DNA from: a virus
Length of the DNA stretch: 28,192 nucleotides
Direction: 5' to 3' (one strand)
Virus record (IMG/VR): IMGVR_UViG_3300043427_001856
Span: 1 to 28,192 of that record
Made by a program: the position numbers and the translations under genes. A model generated the notes under the pieces. It did not search any database. It saw only the letters and a list, made by a program, of their open reading frames with translations, and was not told the origin of the DNA. This document shows positions 7,476-19,756 of this stretch, piece by piece. Each line of letters begins with the position of its first letter. Position 1 is the first letter of the stretch.

Positions 7476-7874
7476 TCAACCCGCGTAGGTGTCGGGGTTG
7501 GTTGTGATGTCCACGCGCATCTGCGATCTCGGCCCCACACCACGGGGCACGTTGATCGTCACCGCGTTGCTGCCGGGGTAGCTCCACAGCAGGCGGCCGG
7601 CCACTTCCTGCAGGCTGGCATCGCCGCTCCAGTCCACCAGATATAGCGTCCAGCGGCTGAAGGCTTGCTCCTTGCTGTATTGCCGCACCGGCACCAGGTC
7701 GGGCTCGCGCACAATCACCACCTCCAAGCCGGTCACGGTGGTGCCAGGCGGCAGGCTTTCACCCGGTGCCCGCACCGAGATGGCTGGTGTGGTGGCGCTA
7801 TTGGCCAAGGTGTACGTGCCGAGCTGATCCACCAGCGTGGTCTCGATGGCGGTGCGCAGGCTCAGCAAGTCCAT
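7476..7874 (-). CDS. Tail terminator-like protein candidate
   Basis: A 132-aa protein beginning MDLLSLRTAIETTLVDQLGT, with an alpha-beta pattern: an N-terminal helix, strands (VTGLEVVIVREPDL), then SRWTLYLVDWSGDASLQEVA and a closing strand region with GPRSQMRVDITT. Size and pattern resemble small tail-terminator proteins (lambda gpU is 131 aa), which cap the tail tube and join it to the neck. No terminator gene is seen in the usual place before the tail tube, which supports this reading. It directly follows the frameshifted chaperone. Confidence in the specific role is modest. Confidence 0.5.
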   Translation of the reverse strand: MDLLSLRTAIETTLVDQLGTYTLANSATTPAISVRAPGESLPPGTTVTGLEVVIVREPDLVPVRQYSKEQAFSRWTLYLVDWSGDASLQEVAGRLLWSYPGSNAVTINVPRGVGPRSQMRVDITTNPDTYAG

Positions 7875-7877
7875 TAC

Positions 7878-9049
7878 CTAGTCTTCCGCCGTAAGCAGCA
7901 AGCAGCCTGCCTCGATCCAGCCGAAGCCGGGGCGAGCGGGGACTAGCAGCCGGTGCGTCAACAGTGGCCGATCTAGATCGCGCAGCAGGACCGTGCCGCT
8001 GATCTGCCCACGAACGAGCACCAATCCGCCACGGATGCCGGTGGCTTCCCACACGGGTGCCAACACCCACACCGCCTCATCGTCGGAATGCAGCGCCCGC
8101 ACCTCGGGCATTCGCGTGCCGTCTGCTGCGCTGGCCAGCACCTCGTTCCAGCAGGACACCAATAGGGGCGGTGCCTTGTCGTCGTGCTTGAGCGCCAGGG
8201 CAACTGCAGCCACCTCGGCGCTGAGGCGTCGCTCGGGCTTTTGCTCGCTGGCGAACAGCTGGAAGTCCTGCAGCGAGAAGGGTTTGCCCTTCTTGGGGTC
8301 GCGGTTGATGTTGGCCAGCAGCGCTGCGAGTTGGGCCACCGGCATCTCCTGCAGTTGCGCTTGCTCGCGGCGAATCCGCTGCAGTTCACGCCATGCCTGC
8401 AGCACCGTTTGCCGTAGTTCCCTCGCGTAGGTGGTGCGGTGGAACTGGCCGGGGTAGCTGTGCGCTAGGTCGTAGAAGATCGCTTGCCAGTCCGTTTCGC
8501 TGCGGCGCCATCCGCCGCTGGCGGCTTTCCCAGCTCCTCCTCAGTCGGCGGCTCACTGGGCAGCGCCTCGGCATCGCTTTCTTCCTGCGCTAGCTGCCAG
8601 ATTGCGTTGAACAGGGTGCGGTGCATCTGGCGGGTGTCAGCGATGCTCCACTCCGGCAGGTTGCAGCGGCAGCGGATCAAGGCCGTGACCGTGGATTCCA
8701 TGTTGCGCTGGCCGGCGGCGGCATACACCTGCGCCACTTCTTGGATCAACGCCGCGTGTTTCGTGCGGATCTCTTCGGCCCGCTCCTCCAGCTGACGGCC
8801 ACTGATCGCACCTTCAATGATGTTGAACGCCTCAGAGATGCTGATCTCTTCGGCCTTGGCAATGGCATCCGCGATCTGGGCGCCTTTGACGAAGCTGCTC
8901 TGCTCATTGGCCAGCAGCTCAGAAATCACCGCCGATTCACCAACGGTGAGACCACCGAGCACCGGCATCTCCAGAATGCCGCTCGCCGGTGTGCCAAGTC
9001 GCCGGGAGGTGGGTGCTTTAGGCGCCTGAACAAAGGGAAGCGTCGGCAT
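7878..9049 (-). CDS. Frameshifted tail assembly chaperone (GT-like fusion product)
   Basis: If ribosomes slip -1 at GGGAAAG (8525-8531), residues 1-175 of the upstream protein join 215 residues from the -1 frame, which stays open to a TAG at 7878-7880, giving 390 aa. The -1 frame reads AASGGWRRSETDWQAIFYDL immediately after the slip, then AHSYPGQFHRTTYARELRQT. This region has no start codon that fits between 8525 and the GTG at 8405, yet reads as a sensible protein; that argues it is made by frameshifting. In lambda, gpG and gpGT are made in a fixed ratio and load the tape measure for tube assembly. The T-like part here would bind tube protein. Downstream is a likely soluble helical domain. 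The alternative is an independent 175-aa protein from GTG 8405. Confidence 0.8.
8465..9049 (-). CDS. Tail assembly chaperone, unshifted (G-like) product
   Basis: The zero-frame product is 194 aa and starts MPTLPFVQAPKAPTSRRLGT. The core at residues 32-160 is helical, with GESAVISELLANEQSSFVKG and SISEAFNIIEGAISGRQLEE, and ends in an acidic tail (EESDAEALPSEPPTEEEL) just before the slip site. A helical domain with an acidic end ahead of a slip site fits the G chaperone pattern. In lambda, G protein binds the tape measure and prevents its aggregation. Here the gene lies downstream of the tape measure and tip genes instead of between tail tube and tape measure, which is unusual. The 19 residues after the slip site are a low-complexity tail. 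Confidence 0.75.
   Translation of the reverse strand: MPTLPFVQAPKAPTSRRLGTPASGILEMPVLGGLTVGESAVISELLANEQSSFVKGAQIADAIAKAEEISISEAFNIIEGAISGRQLEERAEEIRTKHAALIQEVAQVYAAAGQRNMESTVTALIRCRCNLPEWSIADTRQMHRTLFNAIWQLAQEESDAEALPSEPPTEEELGKPPAADGAAAKRTGKRSSTT
8502..8531 (-). promoter_or_regulatory. -1 programmed ribosomal frameshift signal
   Basis: The heptamer GGGAAAG at 8531-8525 is read in the zero frame as G-GGA-AAG, exactly the X-XXY-YYZ phase. Six bases later GCGGCG (8518-8513) and CGCCGC (8507-8502) form a perfect GC stem with a 5-base loop, a standard stimulator spacing. The heptamer is the one used in lambda G/GT. Confidence 0.85.
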
Positions 9050-9062
9050 ACGGGTTGGCTAC

Positions 9063-9179
9063 TTACTTAGAGGTTATTGCCTTGTTGATGAGACGTTGCT
9101 CTTTTTCCTTGCGCAACTGCGCTTGGCGCACAGCAGCTTGGACCTGCTTGCTGTAAGCAATCAACTGGGCTGGTGTCAT
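9063..9179 (-). CDS. 38-aa basic helical microprotein
   Basis: A short frame runs from ATG (9177-9179) to TAA (9063-9065): MTPAQLIAYSKQVQAAVRQA followed by a Lys/Arg/Gln-rich helix. Its start is two bases after the stop of the 526-aa tail protein, and the next gene begins 13 bases downstream, so it fits in the operon. I recognise no family. Its composition suggests a single amphipathic helix, perhaps a minor assembly or tail protein partner. The evidence is only position and reading-frame continuity. Confidence 0.45.
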   Translation of the reverse strand: MTPAQLIAYSKQVQAAVRQAQLRKEKEQRLINKAITSK

Positions 9180-9181
9180 GG

Positions 9182-10762
9182 CTATTCGATCAACGTGACC
9201 GCCAGCCTGTAATAGGTGCCTGGCGGGTTATTGAAGCGATTCTCTGGTGTGCCGCTGGGCAACGCATTGCCAAAGCCGGGCGACAGCAGCGGCGTCAATG
9301 ATGCAAACGGGACTTGCAGCAGGTAGTCGGTGTGCTCAGGGAAGGTGCCTTGCCGGACGGTGACATTGAACACCTCTGCGCTGTAGTCCGCGCTGGTGTT
9401 CCACACTTCCCAGGGGCCAGTCTTGGACACGTAGCCGGTGTCAGGCGCTAGCGCTGGGTTGTAGATGTACTCGCCGTAAGGCGTCTTGGCGAGGATCCGG
9501 TCGCTGTTGCGCGTGATGCTGTATTCGCCTTGGCGCACCACCCAGGTGTTCGTAGACCCCGCACTGATCGCTGCGTTGGTGGGGTAGGGCACTGCAAGAC
9601 CAGAGCCGTTGGCTGTGATCGTGTTGAAGATCGGGGGAATCTGCACGCGGTGCAGGTCCACCAATGTCCAGGCGGTGCCGGCATTGGCTTGATCAGCACC
9701 AACCGAAGTGGTGTAGTCAAAGGTATTCGATACATCGTTCCAGCCGCCACCGGGCAAGTCTTCGGCCAGCACGCTGTCGCTCCAATTCCAGCGCACCTCA
9801 TTGATCGGCACCGCAGCCCATGAGGCATACGACTTGTACAGCCGCGCAGGGATGCCAGATGCGGCACCGTCGTAGATCAACGCGCTAAGGGTGTAGACCG
9901 TTGTGCTGCTGCCAACCTCTACAGCGGTGACGGTGTAGTTCGTCTCCAAGTTTGGCATCAGGTAGTTGACGATGAAGCTCTGCGCTGCGGTGTTGGTTGT
10001 CCACTCCGGTGCAATGCGAATCGAGGCACCGACCGCGATGCTGGGGCCACCATTGGAGACTGTGATCGTCTGGCTGCCGTCCGTGATGCCAAAGCCCACG
10101 ACAACGGCGCCGTGGATCTCGGGATAAACGTGAAAGGGGAAGCGGTTGAGCTGCAGCGCGTCGCTGTAGGTCGTCTCAAACTTGGCGCTGATGGTGCCGC
10201 TAACCGGGCTGGGGCTGGTGGTGGGTTGCTTCAGCTTGAAGCCCCCATAGCCGTAGCGGTACTGCACTGAGCCGTTTTCACGCCCGGTGTAGGGCTTGTA
10301 AACGCGCTTTAAGATGCCAGCCGCCATGGGTGAGCGAGCGTTGAAGCGATTCCACGTTGCCGCCGTGTAGGCCGGCACGGTCACCTCCAGCTCTTGCAGC
10401 GTTGTCGGGTCGGTGGCATCCGCCAGCAGTTGAGCGGTGACGGTGTTTTGATTCCGGGAGACAAAGGGGGCCAAGGTGACGCCATCGCTCCAGGTGGTGC
10501 CGGGGCCGTCAATGAAGACGCATTGGAACAGCAGGCCAAAGCCGCCAACCCGTTGCGCAGCAGGGCGCCTGTCAATGCTGGTGTCTGGAGTGCCGCCTAC
10601 AGGGGGCTGCGGCGTGGTTGCCTGCACCTCAGAGGTGGTGGTCGCTTCAACGCGGGCATCGCGCTCGCGCTGCAGTTGTGCTTCACGGTTGGCCTGTTGC
10701 ACCTGACGCGCACTGGCCAGCAACGCATCACTGCAGCTGGTGACCGTGATGCGGGTGCTCAT
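9182..10762 (-). CDS. Virion protein of the tail tip, unknown fold
   Basis: The 526-aa protein begins MSTRITVTSCSDALLASARQ. Residues about 15-70 are a helical Gln/Arg/Glu-rich linker followed by Pro/Thr-rich sequence; the rest is beta-rich and aromatic, with many Thr/Ser/Tyr strands (VTVPAYTAATWNRFNARSP, RYGYGGFKLKQP). This looks like an elongated structural protein of the distal tail or a fibre attachment protein. It is followed within two bases by a microprotein and then the chaperone genes. No enzymatic motif is visible, and no named family is recognised. Confidence 0.65.
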   Translation of the reverse strand: MSTRITVTSCSDALLASARQVQQANREAQLQRERDARVEATTTSEVQATTPQPPVGGTPDTSIDRRPAAQRVGGFGLLFQCVFIDGPGTTWSDGVTLAPFVSRNQNTVTAQLLADATDPTTLQELEVTVPAYTAATWNRFNARSPMAAGILKRVYKPYTGRENGSVQYRYGYGGFKLKQPTTSPSPVSGTISAKFETTYSDALQLNRFPFHVYPEIHGAVVVGFGITDGSQTITVSNGGPSIAVGASIRIAPEWTTNTAAQSFIVNYLMPNLETNYTVTAVEVGSSTTVYTLSALIYDGAASGIPARLYKSYASWAAVPINEVRWNWSDSVLAEDLPGGGWNDVSNTFDYTTSVGADQANAGTAWTLVDLHRVQIPPIFNTITANGSGLAVPYPTNAAISAGSTNTWVVRQGEYSITRNSDRILAKTPYGEYIYNPALAPDTGYVSKTGPWEVWNTSADYSAEVFNVTVRQGTFPEHTDYLLQVPFASLTPLLSPGFGNALPSGTPENRFNNPPGTYYRLAVTLIE

Positions 10763-14937: not shown

Positions 14938-15686
14938 CACTTCACCTCCGCCACTTCAACGCTGACCGTGTAGCGGGTGCTTTTGACGCCGCCGCTGATG
15001 ATCACCTCAGCGCTGGCACTGGGTGCGCTGATCGGGAAGTAGCTGCCGGTGCTGGGGGTGCTGGCGACGGCGGTTTCGTACCAGCTGCGCACGGCAGTCC
15101 AGCCGCTGCTATCGGTGGTGCCCTCAATGCGGCGCACGCGAGTGGCGGTCAAGGCGCCGGAGATGTAGTGCGTGCCGCTGGCAGTCAGCTGCAGCTGGGG
15201 TGTGTCCTGATAGGTCTCCATCGGAGAGAGCAGCGTGAGCGTGGCGCTGCCGAGGGTCACGGTGCCCAGGCTTGGGATGGTGGCCTCACTGCGCTGGCGG
15301 TTCTTCTCCTCTTGGCGCAGCAGCACAGCTAACGCTTGCGCGGCATCCACCAGCTCGCAGGTGGCCTGGATATAGGGACCGGCTTGATCGCCTGTCGGTG
15401 CAGCGGTGAACCAACAGCCGATCCCGCTCCAGCTGATCCCGTTGGCACTGGCGGTCAGGCTGACGGTGGTGCCGACCGTGCCGCTGCTGAGCGTGTCGGC
15501 ATCGGTGATGCGAGTGTCGCGCCAGGTGTTGTAAACGCTGAGGAGAGATTGCCACTCACTAGCGGTGAGCAGGCCGCTGACGGTCCACTTACGGGCAGTG
15601 AGGCCAGCGCTGGTGTCGGTTTCGTCGTAGCCGAATGGCTGGGCGATCAGCTTGCTGGTGCTGAAGGCGCCGATTGAGATGCTCAT
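14937..15686 (-). CDS. Distal tail-like protein, 249 aa
   Basis: It begins MSISIGAFSTSKLIAQPFGY and is largely beta, with many Thr/Ser strands and a Trp-rich core (ISWSGIGCWFTAAPTGD). Directly after the tape measure (ATGA overlap) and before the tail-tip protein, this is the expected place for a Dit-like hub that closes the tube and carries the tip. I see no specific Dit signature, so the role is from gene order. The short helical EEKNRQRSE segment may link two beta domains. Confidence 0.65.
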   Translation of the reverse strand: MSISIGAFSTSKLIAQPFGYDETDTSAGLTARKWTVSGLLTASEWQSLLSVYNTWRDTRITDADTLSSGTVGTTVSLTASANGISWSGIGCWFTAAPTGDQAGPYIQATCELVDAAQALAVLLRQEEKNRQRSEATIPSLGTVTLGSATLTLLSPMETYQDTPQLQLTASGTHYISGALTATRVRRIEGTTDSSGWTAVRSWYETAVASTPSTGSYFPISAPSASAEVIISGGVKSTRYTVSVEVAEVK

Positions 15687-17719
15687 TGGTAAACCCCCTC
15701 GCGGACGACATCACCGGAGGCGTTGCCGCCGGGCACATTGACAAGAACTGTCCAATCCTTCTTGATCAACTCCTGCTGAGCTTTTGTGTTTTCAACGATT
15801 GCGGTATTGAGATCGTTTTCGGCTTTCGTAAAGCTTTCCGCAAAGCCAGCAACTTGCAGCAGGCGCTCAGGTGTGCTGATGTCGATGTTTTGGCGAATGA
15901 CACCTCGTGCAATCAGTGGATCTACAGCAGCTCTCGCTTGCGCAAGTTGCTGACGCTGCAAAGCGGGACTCAAGAACTCAAATCCGCCACGTAACACGGT
16001 TTGCACATTGTCTTGTGCAGAGCGGAGCGAATCAGCAGCAGCCTTGGCATTACGAGCCAGACTTGCACCAGCCTCTGCATAAGCCAAGCGCACATTAGCG
16101 TTAGCCTTTTCTTGCTCAATAATCAGCTTGTCAACGCTCTCTGCTGTGCGAGTGTTGTTGCGGCCATCACCTACAGGCTTCGCCAACTCACGCTGCAAGC
16201 GGAGCTGTGCAATGCGCTCTTGACGCAACTTCTCTTCGATCCCTAGGCGAACTTGTAGACGCACAAGAGCTGTGCCCTCAAGTGTTGCCAAATCACGAGC
16301 TGCTGCGATATTGGCCTCGATGCCTTTGATTTCAAGGTTGGCCTCGTCACGCCTTAGCTTGGCATTGAGGGCTTTCTGCTCTTCTTCAGATTGCTTTTTG
16401 CTCAAAGCAAGGAGCTTGGCGGCTTCGGCTTCTTGAGCCTTTAATTCTGAGGTTGCATCAACATTCTTGGCACGAAATGCCTCGGCCAGCTCTGGCAGAC
16501 GGGCCAACGTCCGCTCTAAGCCACGTCCATCTGGAAGAAAACCAGTTGACGTGAGCTTCAAGCCTTCAAGCTTGGCTGCATCAAAGAACAGCGCCCGAGC
16601 CTGTTTCGCAGTCAGGTTGTAATCAGTAGCCAGTTGACGTACTGATGCGGCTGCCTCAATGCCAGCGTCTGGCACCAAACCGAGATTGCCAAACAGGCCA
16701 CCCAAGCCAAGTTTGTTGGCATCAATGCCAATTTTGAGACCATCAAGGGCACCGGTTAGGTTTTTAACTTGCTCAATGATCGTTGGCAGCAGGCTTGTGC
16801 CAAACGCGGTTTGAAGTTCATTCCACGCATTGGCCAGCTTCTGGAAGTTCTGCGCTGCTGTTTCCGTGCCGCCTGCACCCGCAGTCAACTCATTAAGACC
16901 TTTCGTCAATGCAGGGAAGAACTGGGATGCCGTCAGCTGACCAGTTTCCACAAGCTTGATCAGCTCTTGCTGAGTAATCCCCAAGCCGCGAGCAGTGGCG
17001 CCAAAGGCGATGGGCAGCCTTTCACCAAGTTGACCGCGCAGTTCTTCCATCTGCACAGTGCCCTTGGCGGCCACTTGCTGCAATGCCAGCAATGAGCCAT
17101 TGATCTCGTCGTTACTCAAGCCAAGAGCCTGTGCAGCCTTTGAAACGGCAGCAAAAAGTTGTTCCTGCTCTTGCAGTGGCACGTTTGCCGCCGTAGCAGC
17201 AGCGGTAAAGCTACCGAAGCTGCTAGCGAGCGTCTTGAAGCTCAAGCCAAGCTGATCTGATAAGCCTCTGGCAAATGAGAGGGCACGGCCAGCACCCTGC
17301 TCCCCCAAGGTGTTGCTGAGCTTGCGCGTAATGGAATCCAGCTCAACTGCAGCGTTAATTGAGCCCCGCAAAAAGCCAGTCAGTGCAGCACCGGCACCTA
17401 GACCAGCCAATGCAGTTCCAAGCCCACTGAGATTGGACCCAGCAGAGGTTGCACTTTTGCCTAGGTCTTCAATGCCAGCAGCTTGACGCTGGGCAAGAGA
17501 GAGAAAACGGCCAGAAGCTTCACGAGCGCGTCCTTGGGCGTCGATGTAATACTGCAGGCCATTGGCTGCTGTACTGACTGCCTTGCCTGACCGATTCAGT
17601 CCTTTTTCAATGTTCTGACCAGTTGTACTGGCTTGACGTTCTGCGGCCTGCAGGCCTGCCTTGAGCTGGGCGTCATCAACGCTAACCGTCAATACAGCAG
17701 CGCCCAGACTCTCGGCCAC
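15683..17719 (-). CDS. Tail tape measure protein
   Basis: The 678-aa protein has a tape-measure N-terminal domain at about residues 125-280: LDSITRKLSNTLGEQGAGRA, QALGLSNDEINGSLLALQQV, KGTVQMEELRGQLGERLPIA. Before it is an Ala/Gly-rich hydrophobic segment (about residues 98-115). The second half is helical and charged, with long coiled-coil stretches (QEAEAAKLLALSKKQSEEEQ). It sets tail length and may help DNA pass the membrane. At about 1.5 angstrom per residue the tail would be near 100 nm. The start is GTG at 17719. It faces the plus-strand neck pair across a 53-base divergent gap and overlaps the next gene by ATGA. Confidence 0.93.
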   Translation of the reverse strand: MAESLGAAVLTVSVDDAQLKAGLQAAERQASTTGQNIEKGLNRSGKAVSTAANGLQYYIDAQGRAREASGRFLSLAQRQAAGIEDLGKSATSAGSNLSGLGTALAGLGAGAALTGFLRGSINAAVELDSITRKLSNTLGEQGAGRALSFARGLSDQLGLSFKTLASSFGSFTAAATAANVPLQEQEQLFAAVSKAAQALGLSNDEINGSLLALQQVAAKGTVQMEELRGQLGERLPIAFGATARGLGITQQELIKLVETGQLTASQFFPALTKGLNELTAGAGGTETAAQNFQKLANAWNELQTAFGTSLLPTIIEQVKNLTGALDGLKIGIDANKLGLGGLFGNLGLVPDAGIEAAASVRQLATDYNLTAKQARALFFDAAKLEGLKLTSTGFLPDGRGLERTLARLPELAEAFRAKNVDATSELKAQEAEAAKLLALSKKQSEEEQKALNAKLRRDEANLEIKGIEANIAAARDLATLEGTALVRLQVRLGIEEKLRQERIAQLRLQRELAKPVGDGRNNTRTAESVDKLIIEQEKANANVRLAYAEAGASLARNAKAAADSLRSAQDNVQTVLRGGFEFLSPALQRQQLAQARAAVDPLIARGVIRQNIDISTPERLLQVAGFAESFTKAENDLNTAIVENTKAQQELIKKDWTVLVNVPGGNASGDVVREGVYQ

Positions 17720-17772: not shown

Positions 17773-18168
17773 ATGACAAGTGCTCTCGCTGCGCTCGCCA
17801 ACGCCACGGCGACCTTCACTGTGCCCACCGTTGGCACCATGACTGATCCCGTTACCGGGAACATTGCACCGGCTACAGAAGCCGTCACCGTCAGCTTGTA
17901 CCTGCGACAGGCCGGCACCAACAGCTCAGGCTTCCCTGGTGTGGACACCGAAGTAGAGACCTATGAGGGCTATGCCGTCAGCCCCCAAGCCCTCGATGCC
18001 CGCATCAAGGCAGGCATCACCGGAACGCTGAACTTTGCTGGTCAAGGTGCCATTGAATGTGAGGTAATCAACGGCCGCTTTCCCTACGGCAGCACCGGCC
18101 TGATCGGCAGCACGCTGCAGCAGGTGCTGGGTGACAAGATCCGCTTGGCCCGCTACGTGCAGGGCTAA
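17773..18168 (+). CDS. Head completion/stopper-like neck protein
   Basis: The 131-aa protein begins MTSALAALANATATFTVPTV and continues with an unstructured Thr/Pro/Gly segment and a beta domain (VTVSLYLRQAGT, VETYEGYAV, FPYGSTGLIGS). The size, the beta content and the pairing with a tail-completion-like gene fit a head-closure (stopper) protein, which seals DNA in the capsid and meets the tail. It lies on the plus strand, opposite to every other gene in the window. Its stop overlaps the next gene's start (TAATG). Role assigned by context and style. Confidence 0.6.
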   Translation: MTSALAALANATATFTVPTVGTMTDPVTGNIAPATEAVTVSLYLRQAGTNSSGFPGVDTEVETYEGYAVSPQALDARIKAGITGTLNFAGQGAIECEVINGRFPYGSTGLIGSTLQQVLGDKIRLARYVQG

Positions 18169-18614
18169 TGGCAGTTCAAGTTAAGGCGACGTTCAACCTG
18201 ACCGGTTGGAATGCCAATCAACTGAAGCTGCGGGTGCCGCAGATCCTCGGCACCTACCAGACAGTGCTGGACAAGCAGCTCAAAGCTGAGATCCAATCAC
18301 CGCAGTTCAGCTGGCCTCGGGAAACCAAACGCCGCAATAGCGCCACTGTCAGCAGCCCCCGCGACATCGTGGACCTTGGCGGCTTCCTGCGCTCCCAGCG
18401 CCGCAACTTTGATGGTCGCACCACGATCACCTTTACGTGGGATGCCAAGAGCAAAGGCGGGTTTGCCTATGCCCCGCTGATCCTCACCGGCTACACCACA
18501 AGCAAAGGCACGCTGGTGCCAGGGCGCAACTGGATCAAGCCGGCGCTAGAGAATGCCCCGCTCGATACCTACTTCGCGGATCAGTGGCGCAAGCTGAGCG
18601 GCATGAGCCTCTAA
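18168..18614 (+). CDS. Tail completion/neck protein (HK97 gp10-like)
   Basis: The 148-aa protein starts MAVQVKATFNLTGWNANQLK. Its middle has RETKRRNSATVSSPRDIVDL followed by GGFLRSQRRN, and its end reads VPGRNWIKPALENAPLDTYF. The GRNWI..A closing motif and the size fit the HK97 gp10 type neck/tail completion family, which joins the tail to the portal complex. It is co-transcribed with the stopper-like gene on the plus strand and ends right at the terminator that stops minus-strand reading. Confidence 0.7.
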   Translation: MAVQVKATFNLTGWNANQLKLRVPQILGTYQTVLDKQLKAEIQSPQFSWPRETKRRNSATVSSPRDIVDLGGFLRSQRRNFDGRTTITFTWDAKSKGGFAYAPLILTGYTTSKGTLVPGRNWIKPALENAPLDTYFADQWRKLSGMSL

Positions 18615-18674: not shown

Positions 18675-19154
18675 TCAGGTGTTCGTCTCAGCCACCCAAG
18701 ACGGGGCGCCATAACCGGTCAAGGTGAACGAAACACTGGCCACGTTGCCAGCCTGGATGTCTTCGGAGAAGTCGGTCACGAAGGCCACGCCGCTGTTGTA
18801 CTCAGGGCTGCCGGTGGAACTCATCTCAGGCGATTCACGGAACCACTCCACAGTCACGCCAGTGGCCGCATCCAAAGCTGCTTGACGCAAGATCTTGTAG
18901 CCCGCGTCATTGAGATTGAGGTTCATGGTGCAGGGGATGGTGTAACTCTGCCCTGTCACCAAGCTTGCGCTGTAGCCCTGAGTGGAGCCGTAGTCCAGCA
19001 CGTCAGTGGTGGAGCTACTGCCCTGGATTCCTGCGTTGGTCAGACTGAGGATCTCAGTCATGCCCGTAGAAGCGGTTGGATTTGTGGAGGCCGTGGTGCC
19101 AGCCTTCACATAGAAGCGATACCCAAGGGCCGCGAAGAAGGCACCGGTGGCCAT
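18675..19154 (-). CDS. Major tail (tube) protein
   Basis: The 159-aa protein begins MATGAFFAALGYRFYVKAGT and ends with FSEDIQAGNVASVSFTLTGY, a strand pair typical of phage tail tube proteins, which stack as hexamers around the tape measure. The middle carries AGIQGSSSTTDVLDYGSTQG and a helix NDAGYKILRQAALDAATG. It follows the connector genes and precedes the tape measure in gene order, interrupted only by the inverted neck pair. It is the last gene before the terminator at 18616-18642. Confidence 0.85.
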   Translation of the reverse strand: MATGAFFAALGYRFYVKAGTTASTNPTASTGMTEILSLTNAGIQGSSSTTDVLDYGSTQGYSASLVTGQSYTIPCTMNLNLNDAGYKILRQAALDAATGVTVEWFRESPEMSSTGSPEYNSGVAFVTDFSEDIQAGNVASVSFTLTGYGAPSWVAETNT

Positions 19155-19177: not shown

Positions 19178-19187
19178 CTAACTTGCC
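19178..19187 (-). repeat. Junction motif copy, GGCAAGTTAG
   Basis: The TAG is also the stop codon of the sigma-like gene. The motif is followed by GGCT-ACA-AGCC, a small hairpin, before the tail tube start. Confidence 0.6.
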
Positions 19188-19756
19188 GCTAAACGATCTT
19201 CTTCAGCTTCCAGCACCTCCCACGGTGTGGGTCGAGGGCAAACGTGCAGATCAAAGCCTTTCACGTCATGAGCGACGCCTGCGGTGGCCAGCAGCGCATC
19301 CTTCAGCTCGGTCTTCGTGCAGCTCAGCTCCTTGCACACTGCTAGCGAGGTCCAGCCGAGTGCCATCAGCTTCCTAGCGCTATTGCCCAAGAGACGCGCT
19401 TTATGCGTGGCCTTGATTGTCCAGTTGCTGCCGCGCAGGAAGTGCAGGCACTCGCCTTGGGCAAACGTCCAAAAGATGGTGCTGAGCTTCCCGCGTTCCG
19501 GGTCATGGGCACGGCACGCCTTGAGAAAGGCGATGTCCACGCAGGAGAAGATGTCTTCGGTGGCCATGCAGTGCCGATACTTGCGGCACAGCTTCCCGCC
19601 GAACATGCGGATCAGGCCAATGTTCTCGGCATACATCCGACCAAAGCGCCGCTGCTCTTCTCTGGTGAACGGCTTGGCGAGATGATGCTCAACGCGCTTT
19701 TTCTCCGGTTCAGCCGGAGTGCTGAAGAATGAAAGTTGGCCTTCAGCGATGCGCAT
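19178..19756 (-). CDS. Sigma-factor-like protein
   Basis: The 192-aa protein has a region resembling sigma70 region 2 at residues about 38-109 (YAENIGLIRMF, MATEDIFSCVDIAFLKACRA, HDPERGKLSTIFWTFAQGEC, LHFLRGS). A second helix-turn-helix at about 131-157 (LMALGWTSLAVCKELSCTKT) fits region 4. It would act in the host cytoplasm as an RNA polymerase partner or a DNA-binding regulator. Finding such a gene between the connector and the tail tube is uncommon. It begins with a short Pro/Glu-rich leader. A late-gene switch role is an inference, and a non-sigma HTH role remains possible. Its leader has no junction motif, but its stop overlaps one. Confidence 0.7.
   Translation of the reverse strand: MRIAEGQLSFFSTPAEPEKKRVEHHLAKPFTREEQRRFGRMYAENIGLIRMFGGKLCRKYRHCMATEDIFSCVDIAFLKACRAHDPERGKLSTIFWTFAQGECLHFLRGSNWTIKATHKARLLGNSARKLMALGWTSLAVCKELSCTKTELKDALLATAGVAHDVKGFDLHVCPRPTPWEVLEAEEDRLAAS

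Follow-up and report, generated by a model that had tools for sequence, protein, structure and literature searches.

The -1 frameshift that yields the tail assembly chaperones gpG and gpGT of phage lambda was reportedly described by Levin in 1993. In lambda, the mechanism centers on the shifty heptamer G_GGA_AAG (PMC5009743), which lies near the end of G, the first of two overlapping ORFs; the second, in the -1 frame, encodes the T domain, such that G is made both alone and as a GT fusion. The lambda pair is situated between the genes for the major tail protein and the tape measure protein, and the textbook order is likewise major tail, chaperones, and tape measure (PMC3706429).

The locus considered here lies in the virus record IMGVR_UViG_3300043427_001856, of which the whole stretch of 28,192 nucleotides was analyzed (hereafter the window). 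It shares with lambda the heptamer G_GGA_AAG, identically phased and close to the end of G, and two overlapping ORFs, of which the second is in the -1 frame and contains a T domain matched by Phage_tail_T; the combination of a free G and a GT fusion is predicted for the window virus from its sequence. It differs from lambda in that the pair lies past the tape measure and tail-tip genes, in that the slip site is followed by a covarying 6-bp GC stem, and in that sequence similarity of its G to known G proteins is undetectable. We consider it almost certain that this locus encodes the G/GT tail-assembly-chaperone pair of a cyanobacterial siphovirus, expressed by -1 frameshifting at G_GGA_AAG. A first-pass annotation, made from the nucleotide sequence without database searches, had predicted a tail chaperone pair arising from lambda-type frameshifting; the heptamer, the codon periodicity, and the T-domain comparisons support this prediction, and its identification of GGGAAAG with the heptamer used for lambda G and GT agrees with the literature (PMC5009743). 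The mechanism has been known since lambda, and it is the gene position that is unusual here.

The predicted slip site and its downstream stem

ORF1 runs on the minus strand from an ATG at 9049 to a stop codon at 8467-8465, and is composed of 175 aa that end at the slip site and are common to the fusion, plus a 19-aa frame-0 tail (PPAADGAAAKRTGKRSSTT). Its codons CTG GGA AAG CCG include the heptamer GGGAAAG (8531-8525), read as G-GGA-AAG, which is the phase for tandem -1 slippage, and our check of the ORFs and the sequence confirmed the earlier assignment of this phase. In the -1 frame, 215 open codons (8525-7881) lead to a TAG at 7880-7878, with every coordinate as first recorded; the predicted GT fusion accordingly has a length of 175 + 215 = 390 aa. 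The earliest possible start in the -1 frame is a GTG at 8405, 40 codons in. The 18 main ORFs of the window contain only three in-phase X_XXY_YYZ heptamers, and that at 8531-8525 opens a -1 frame of 217 codons (counted from the first base of the heptamer) versus 19 and 24 codons for the other two. In the window and its own group, a Shine-Dalgarno-like GGAGGAG (8534-8540, minus strand) stops 2 nt short of the heptamer, and in others it is weaker; this distance is closer than the spacing known to stimulate -1 shifting.

Table 1. Coordinates of the chaperone locus and associated tail genes in the window
Feature	Position	Strand	Basis and remarks
ORF1, gpG-like tail assembly chaperone	8465..9049	-	194 aa; homologues; AlphaFold match to F4YCJ6
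Slippery heptamer G_GGA_AAG, -1, in phase	8525..8531	-	Invariant in 38/38 relatives
-1 frame, T domain of the predicted fusion	7878..8525	-	Phage_tail_T and PHROG matches; alignment
40-codon -1-frame stretch without a start	8406..8525	-	-1-frame codon periodicity; skipped by ordinary gene calling
Stem-loop GCGGCG-GATGG-CGCCGC	8502..8518	-	6-nt spacer; 87% of cells paired; 4/6 pairs with compensatory changes
Probable tail terminator	7476..7874	-	Next gene after G/GT; synteny; weak fold matches
Tape measure protein (TMP_3)	15683..17719	-	E = 4e-27; upstream of G/GT
Major tail protein	18675..19154	-	phrog_1407 (E = 1e-9), phrog_38654 (E = 1.5e-10)

The first-pass annotation had also drawn attention to a perfect GC stem of 6 bp, capped by a 5-base loop (GATGG) and starting six bases past the heptamer. 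Its geometry stands, but the folding energy of the region in the window is unexceptional (z = +0.71; matched by 152 of 200 shuffles), and single-sequence folding, not being significant, was rejected as support for the stem. Across the relatives, the stem reads GCGGCG/CGCCGC in the group containing the window, CCGGCG/CGCCGG in another, and CCGGTC/GACCGG in a third, with changes on both sides at four of the six pairs. Its covariation score is 0.330, compared with slid versions reaching no more than 0.138 and shuffles 0.103, and it has 21 double-changed cells versus 0-5 for the slid versions, a count to be read in the light of the few independent changes, which related sequences share. The stem's conservation in homologues, which had been put forward as a check, was borne out by covariation in most of them, but four relatives (L032, L033, L036, and L038) are without this stem. 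Given its absence from these four, we regard the stem as a putative stimulator in most of the group, at most a helper and no absolute requirement. A search by eye for a second conserved helix or a pseudoknot using the near-invariant AAACGGACTGG found no consistent pairing, and an Rfam scan of 7800-9200 returned no match.

By analogy to lambda, we propose that most ribosomes would read ORF1 to its own stop to produce the 194-aa gpG, whereas a minority would move one base back on G_GGA_AAG, with probable help from the stem-loop, and translate 215 more codons to produce the 390-aa gpGT. Many copies of gpG and few of gpGT would then bind the tape measure protein through the G part, with the T part recruiting the major tail protein, and both forms would leave before the tail is completed. 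We infer the slippage, its frequency, and the chaperone role, as well as the efficiency and the resulting G:GT ratio, from these comparisons.

Conservation across the junction and competing explanations

A scan of viral contigs recovered 56 loci, about 41 of which are close relatives; 38 span the junction. GGGAAAG is present in the same phase in all 38, in which it is the sole in-phase heptamer at the junction, at protein identities down to 57%. The alignment of homologues originally suggested as a check thus upheld the conservation of the heptamer, and homologues retaining both ORFs without an in-phase heptamer, which had been named as the contrary case, were found neither among the 38 near relatives nor among five remote cultured phages. 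In 19 divergent representatives, with Met and Trp set aside, only three codons are invariant among the 60 columns of G with an invariant residue, and two of these, GGA and AAG, belong to the heptamer; of the Gly codons in the window, 4% are GGA.

In the relatives' alignment, the codon periodicity changes frame at the heptamer, ahead of any start codon. Before the heptamer is reached, the wobble position of frame 0 is the least conserved (identity 0.49-0.55 vs 0.75-0.91); the overlap of ORF1 with the -1 frame shows constraint on both frames; and from the end of ORF1 to the GTG the lowest identity is at the -1-frame wobble position (0.59 vs 0.72-0.75). Since the wobble minimum moves to the -1 frame before the GTG, this stretch is, as judged from the alignment, evolving as a protein in the -1 frame, in line with the earlier impression of a plausible protein ahead of any usable start, and the -1-frame periodicity extends across the 40 codons preceding the GTG at 8405.

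These observations bear on the possibility that T is made separately, as a 175-aa protein initiated at the internal GTG, with the heptamer being a bystander. A GTG does occur at this position in most relatives, and the Pfam T match on the -1 frame begins just past it (residue 43). However, given that the stretch before the GTG evolves as a -1-frame protein, initiation at 8405 could not explain its constraint; the 40 codons are conserved with -1-frame periodicity, and recognizable parts of them persist in the cultured phages PSS2 and S-CBS4. Moreover, the GTG is missing in L038, there is no well-spaced Shine-Dalgarno sequence (a GAGGG lies about 14 nt from the GTG), and the invariance of GGA AAG would be left unexplained, making separate initiation a very improbable account. 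Still less probable, to the point of being hardly credible, is a joining of the frames by transcriptional slippage instead of ribosomal frameshifting: the A runs found in some remote relatives (AAAAAAG, AAAAAAA) could slip either way, but the longest homopolymer in GGGAAAG is three, the phase G_GGA_AAG that is kept in every near relative is required by tandem ribosomal and not by transcriptional slippage, and the downstream RNA stem covaries. Although indels are possible in metagenome contigs, an artifact of sequencing or assembly, or the decay of a frameshifted gene, is excluded in practice, since five cultured phages and 38 further contigs have the same arrangement, with protein conserved on both sides.

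The G and T proteins and their counterparts in cultured cyanosiphophages

ORF2, read in the -1 frame, matches the Pfam domain Phage_tail_T (PF06223) with E = 6.3e-5 and 23.8 bits, slightly under the curated cut-off of 25.9, and the same domain is matched by 17 of 21 ORF2 homologues (best E = 4.9e-6); in PHROG, ORF2 matches phrog_34388 (E = 2.5e-18) and phrog_337, a tail protein family (E = 1.4e-5). ORF1 found no known gpG or named family among PHROG and PDB sequences, nor did a PDB sequence search with the G and T profiles or a PDB fold search with G yield a match. The gpG proteins diverge quickly. The AlphaFold model of ORF1 (pLDDT 82) has one clear viral fold match, F4YCJ6 (E = 4e-10), which, from its equal length of 181 aa, is probably S-CBS2 gp015, and further weak matches to annotated chaperones. 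A contig scan with the T profile recovered only remote T-like stretches from Planctomycetes and other MAG contigs, and no evidence on the host. Separately, a set of more distant phage contigs (L042-L056) has a T-like domain that is preceded in nearly every case by an in-phase TTTTTTC heptamer; this set is a possible U_UUU_UUC frameshift group.

Homologues of G and/or T, at about 25-34% identity, are present in the cultured phages PSS2, S-CRES1/2, S-CRES3, S-CBS2, and S-CBS4, which resemble the window in having an in-phase -1 heptamer at the same place. The heptamer is GGGAAAG in PSS2 and S-CRES3, whereas others differ from the window in having AAAAAAG (S-CRES1, S-CBS2) or AAAAAAA (S-CBS4). The frameshift is recorded in none of the annotations of PSS2, S-CRES1, S-CRES3, S-CBS2, and S-CBS4. 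The deposited annotations of PSS2, S-CRES1, S-CBS2, and S-CRES3 (L058-L061) split the gene and start T late, which can be corrected; this is the outcome foreseen in the first-pass annotation, viz., that gene calling would split the pair and drop about 40 residues of its second part. A search of the open-access literature found no report of tail-chaperone frameshifts in cyanophages. Mass spectrometry of the P-SS2 virion detected ORFs 061-063 and 066-067, with 064 and 065 not in Table 2 (PMC2784084). ORFs 064 and 065 are the G and T homologues of PSS2, and their absence from the proteome table, in which the products of the flanking genes are present, is weakly suggestive of chaperones that would remain outside the virion.

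The nearest relatives of the window's terminase, portal, capsid, and scaffold proteins (45-65% identity) are from KBS-S-2A, S-H1, and MED4-184, which differ from the window in being without a match to its G or T; the window's tail module is, on these comparisons, from a lineage other than that of these phages. Given that its terminase, portal, and capsid proteins are 51-65% identical to those of Synechococcus and Prochlorococcus siphophages, the host is probably a cyanobacterium. Among the head-completion genes of the window, a small protein (19178-19756, minus strand) shows a weak match to Sigma-70 region 2 (E = 0.0012, below the cut-off).

Gene order and mobility of the chaperone block

G starts 6.6 kb past the tape measure gene, behind five further genes, and the G/GT pair is not found between the major tail protein and the tape measure, a place that is usual but not strictly defining. 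The first-pass annotation had called this location far downstream of the tape measure unusual, and the relatives extend the observation, with the tape measure gene being upstream of G in all 12 that have a visible tape-measure match. In fold comparisons, the tail terminator candidate (7874-7476) weakly resembles lambda gpU, 2gjv, and phage neck proteins, and it has no match in a PHROG search; its gene travels with G/GT in the relatives, and in S-CBS2 and S-CRES3 its homologues are neighbors of the major tail protein.

The cultured phages each depart from the arrangement in the window: in S-CBS4, G/T lies just before the tape measure, i.e., on the textbook side; in S-CBS2 and the S-CRES phages, G and T are followed by the terminator, major tail, and tape measure genes, in that order; and the PSS2 pair lies 19 kb ahead of the tape measure. 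Given these differing positions, the G-GT-terminator block has, judging from the gene orders, moved within this group. We offer only as a tentative scenario, for which the odds are somewhat unfavorable, that in a clade of cyanosiphophages the chaperones and the terminator have left their usual location ahead of the tape measure for the distal end of the tail module, where the dosage of the chaperones would be set by transcript position and the stem-stimulated slip site and not by synthesis beside the tape measure.

Between the major tail protein and the tape measure, the otherwise minus-strand structural operon of the window contains two opposite-strand genes (17773-18614, plus strand), which are inverted likewise in those relatives that reach that far. 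Given that a weak homologue of one of them sits just upstream of G in S-CRES3, they may represent an inverted block of neck genes.

The analysis identifies tail chaperones, so far unannotated, for a widespread group of cyanobacterial viruses, and indicates that several cultured cyanosiphophages carry annotations in which the second gene is truncated. It also indicates that G/GT need not adjoin the tape measure gene, although that neighborhood commonly serves to find these genes.
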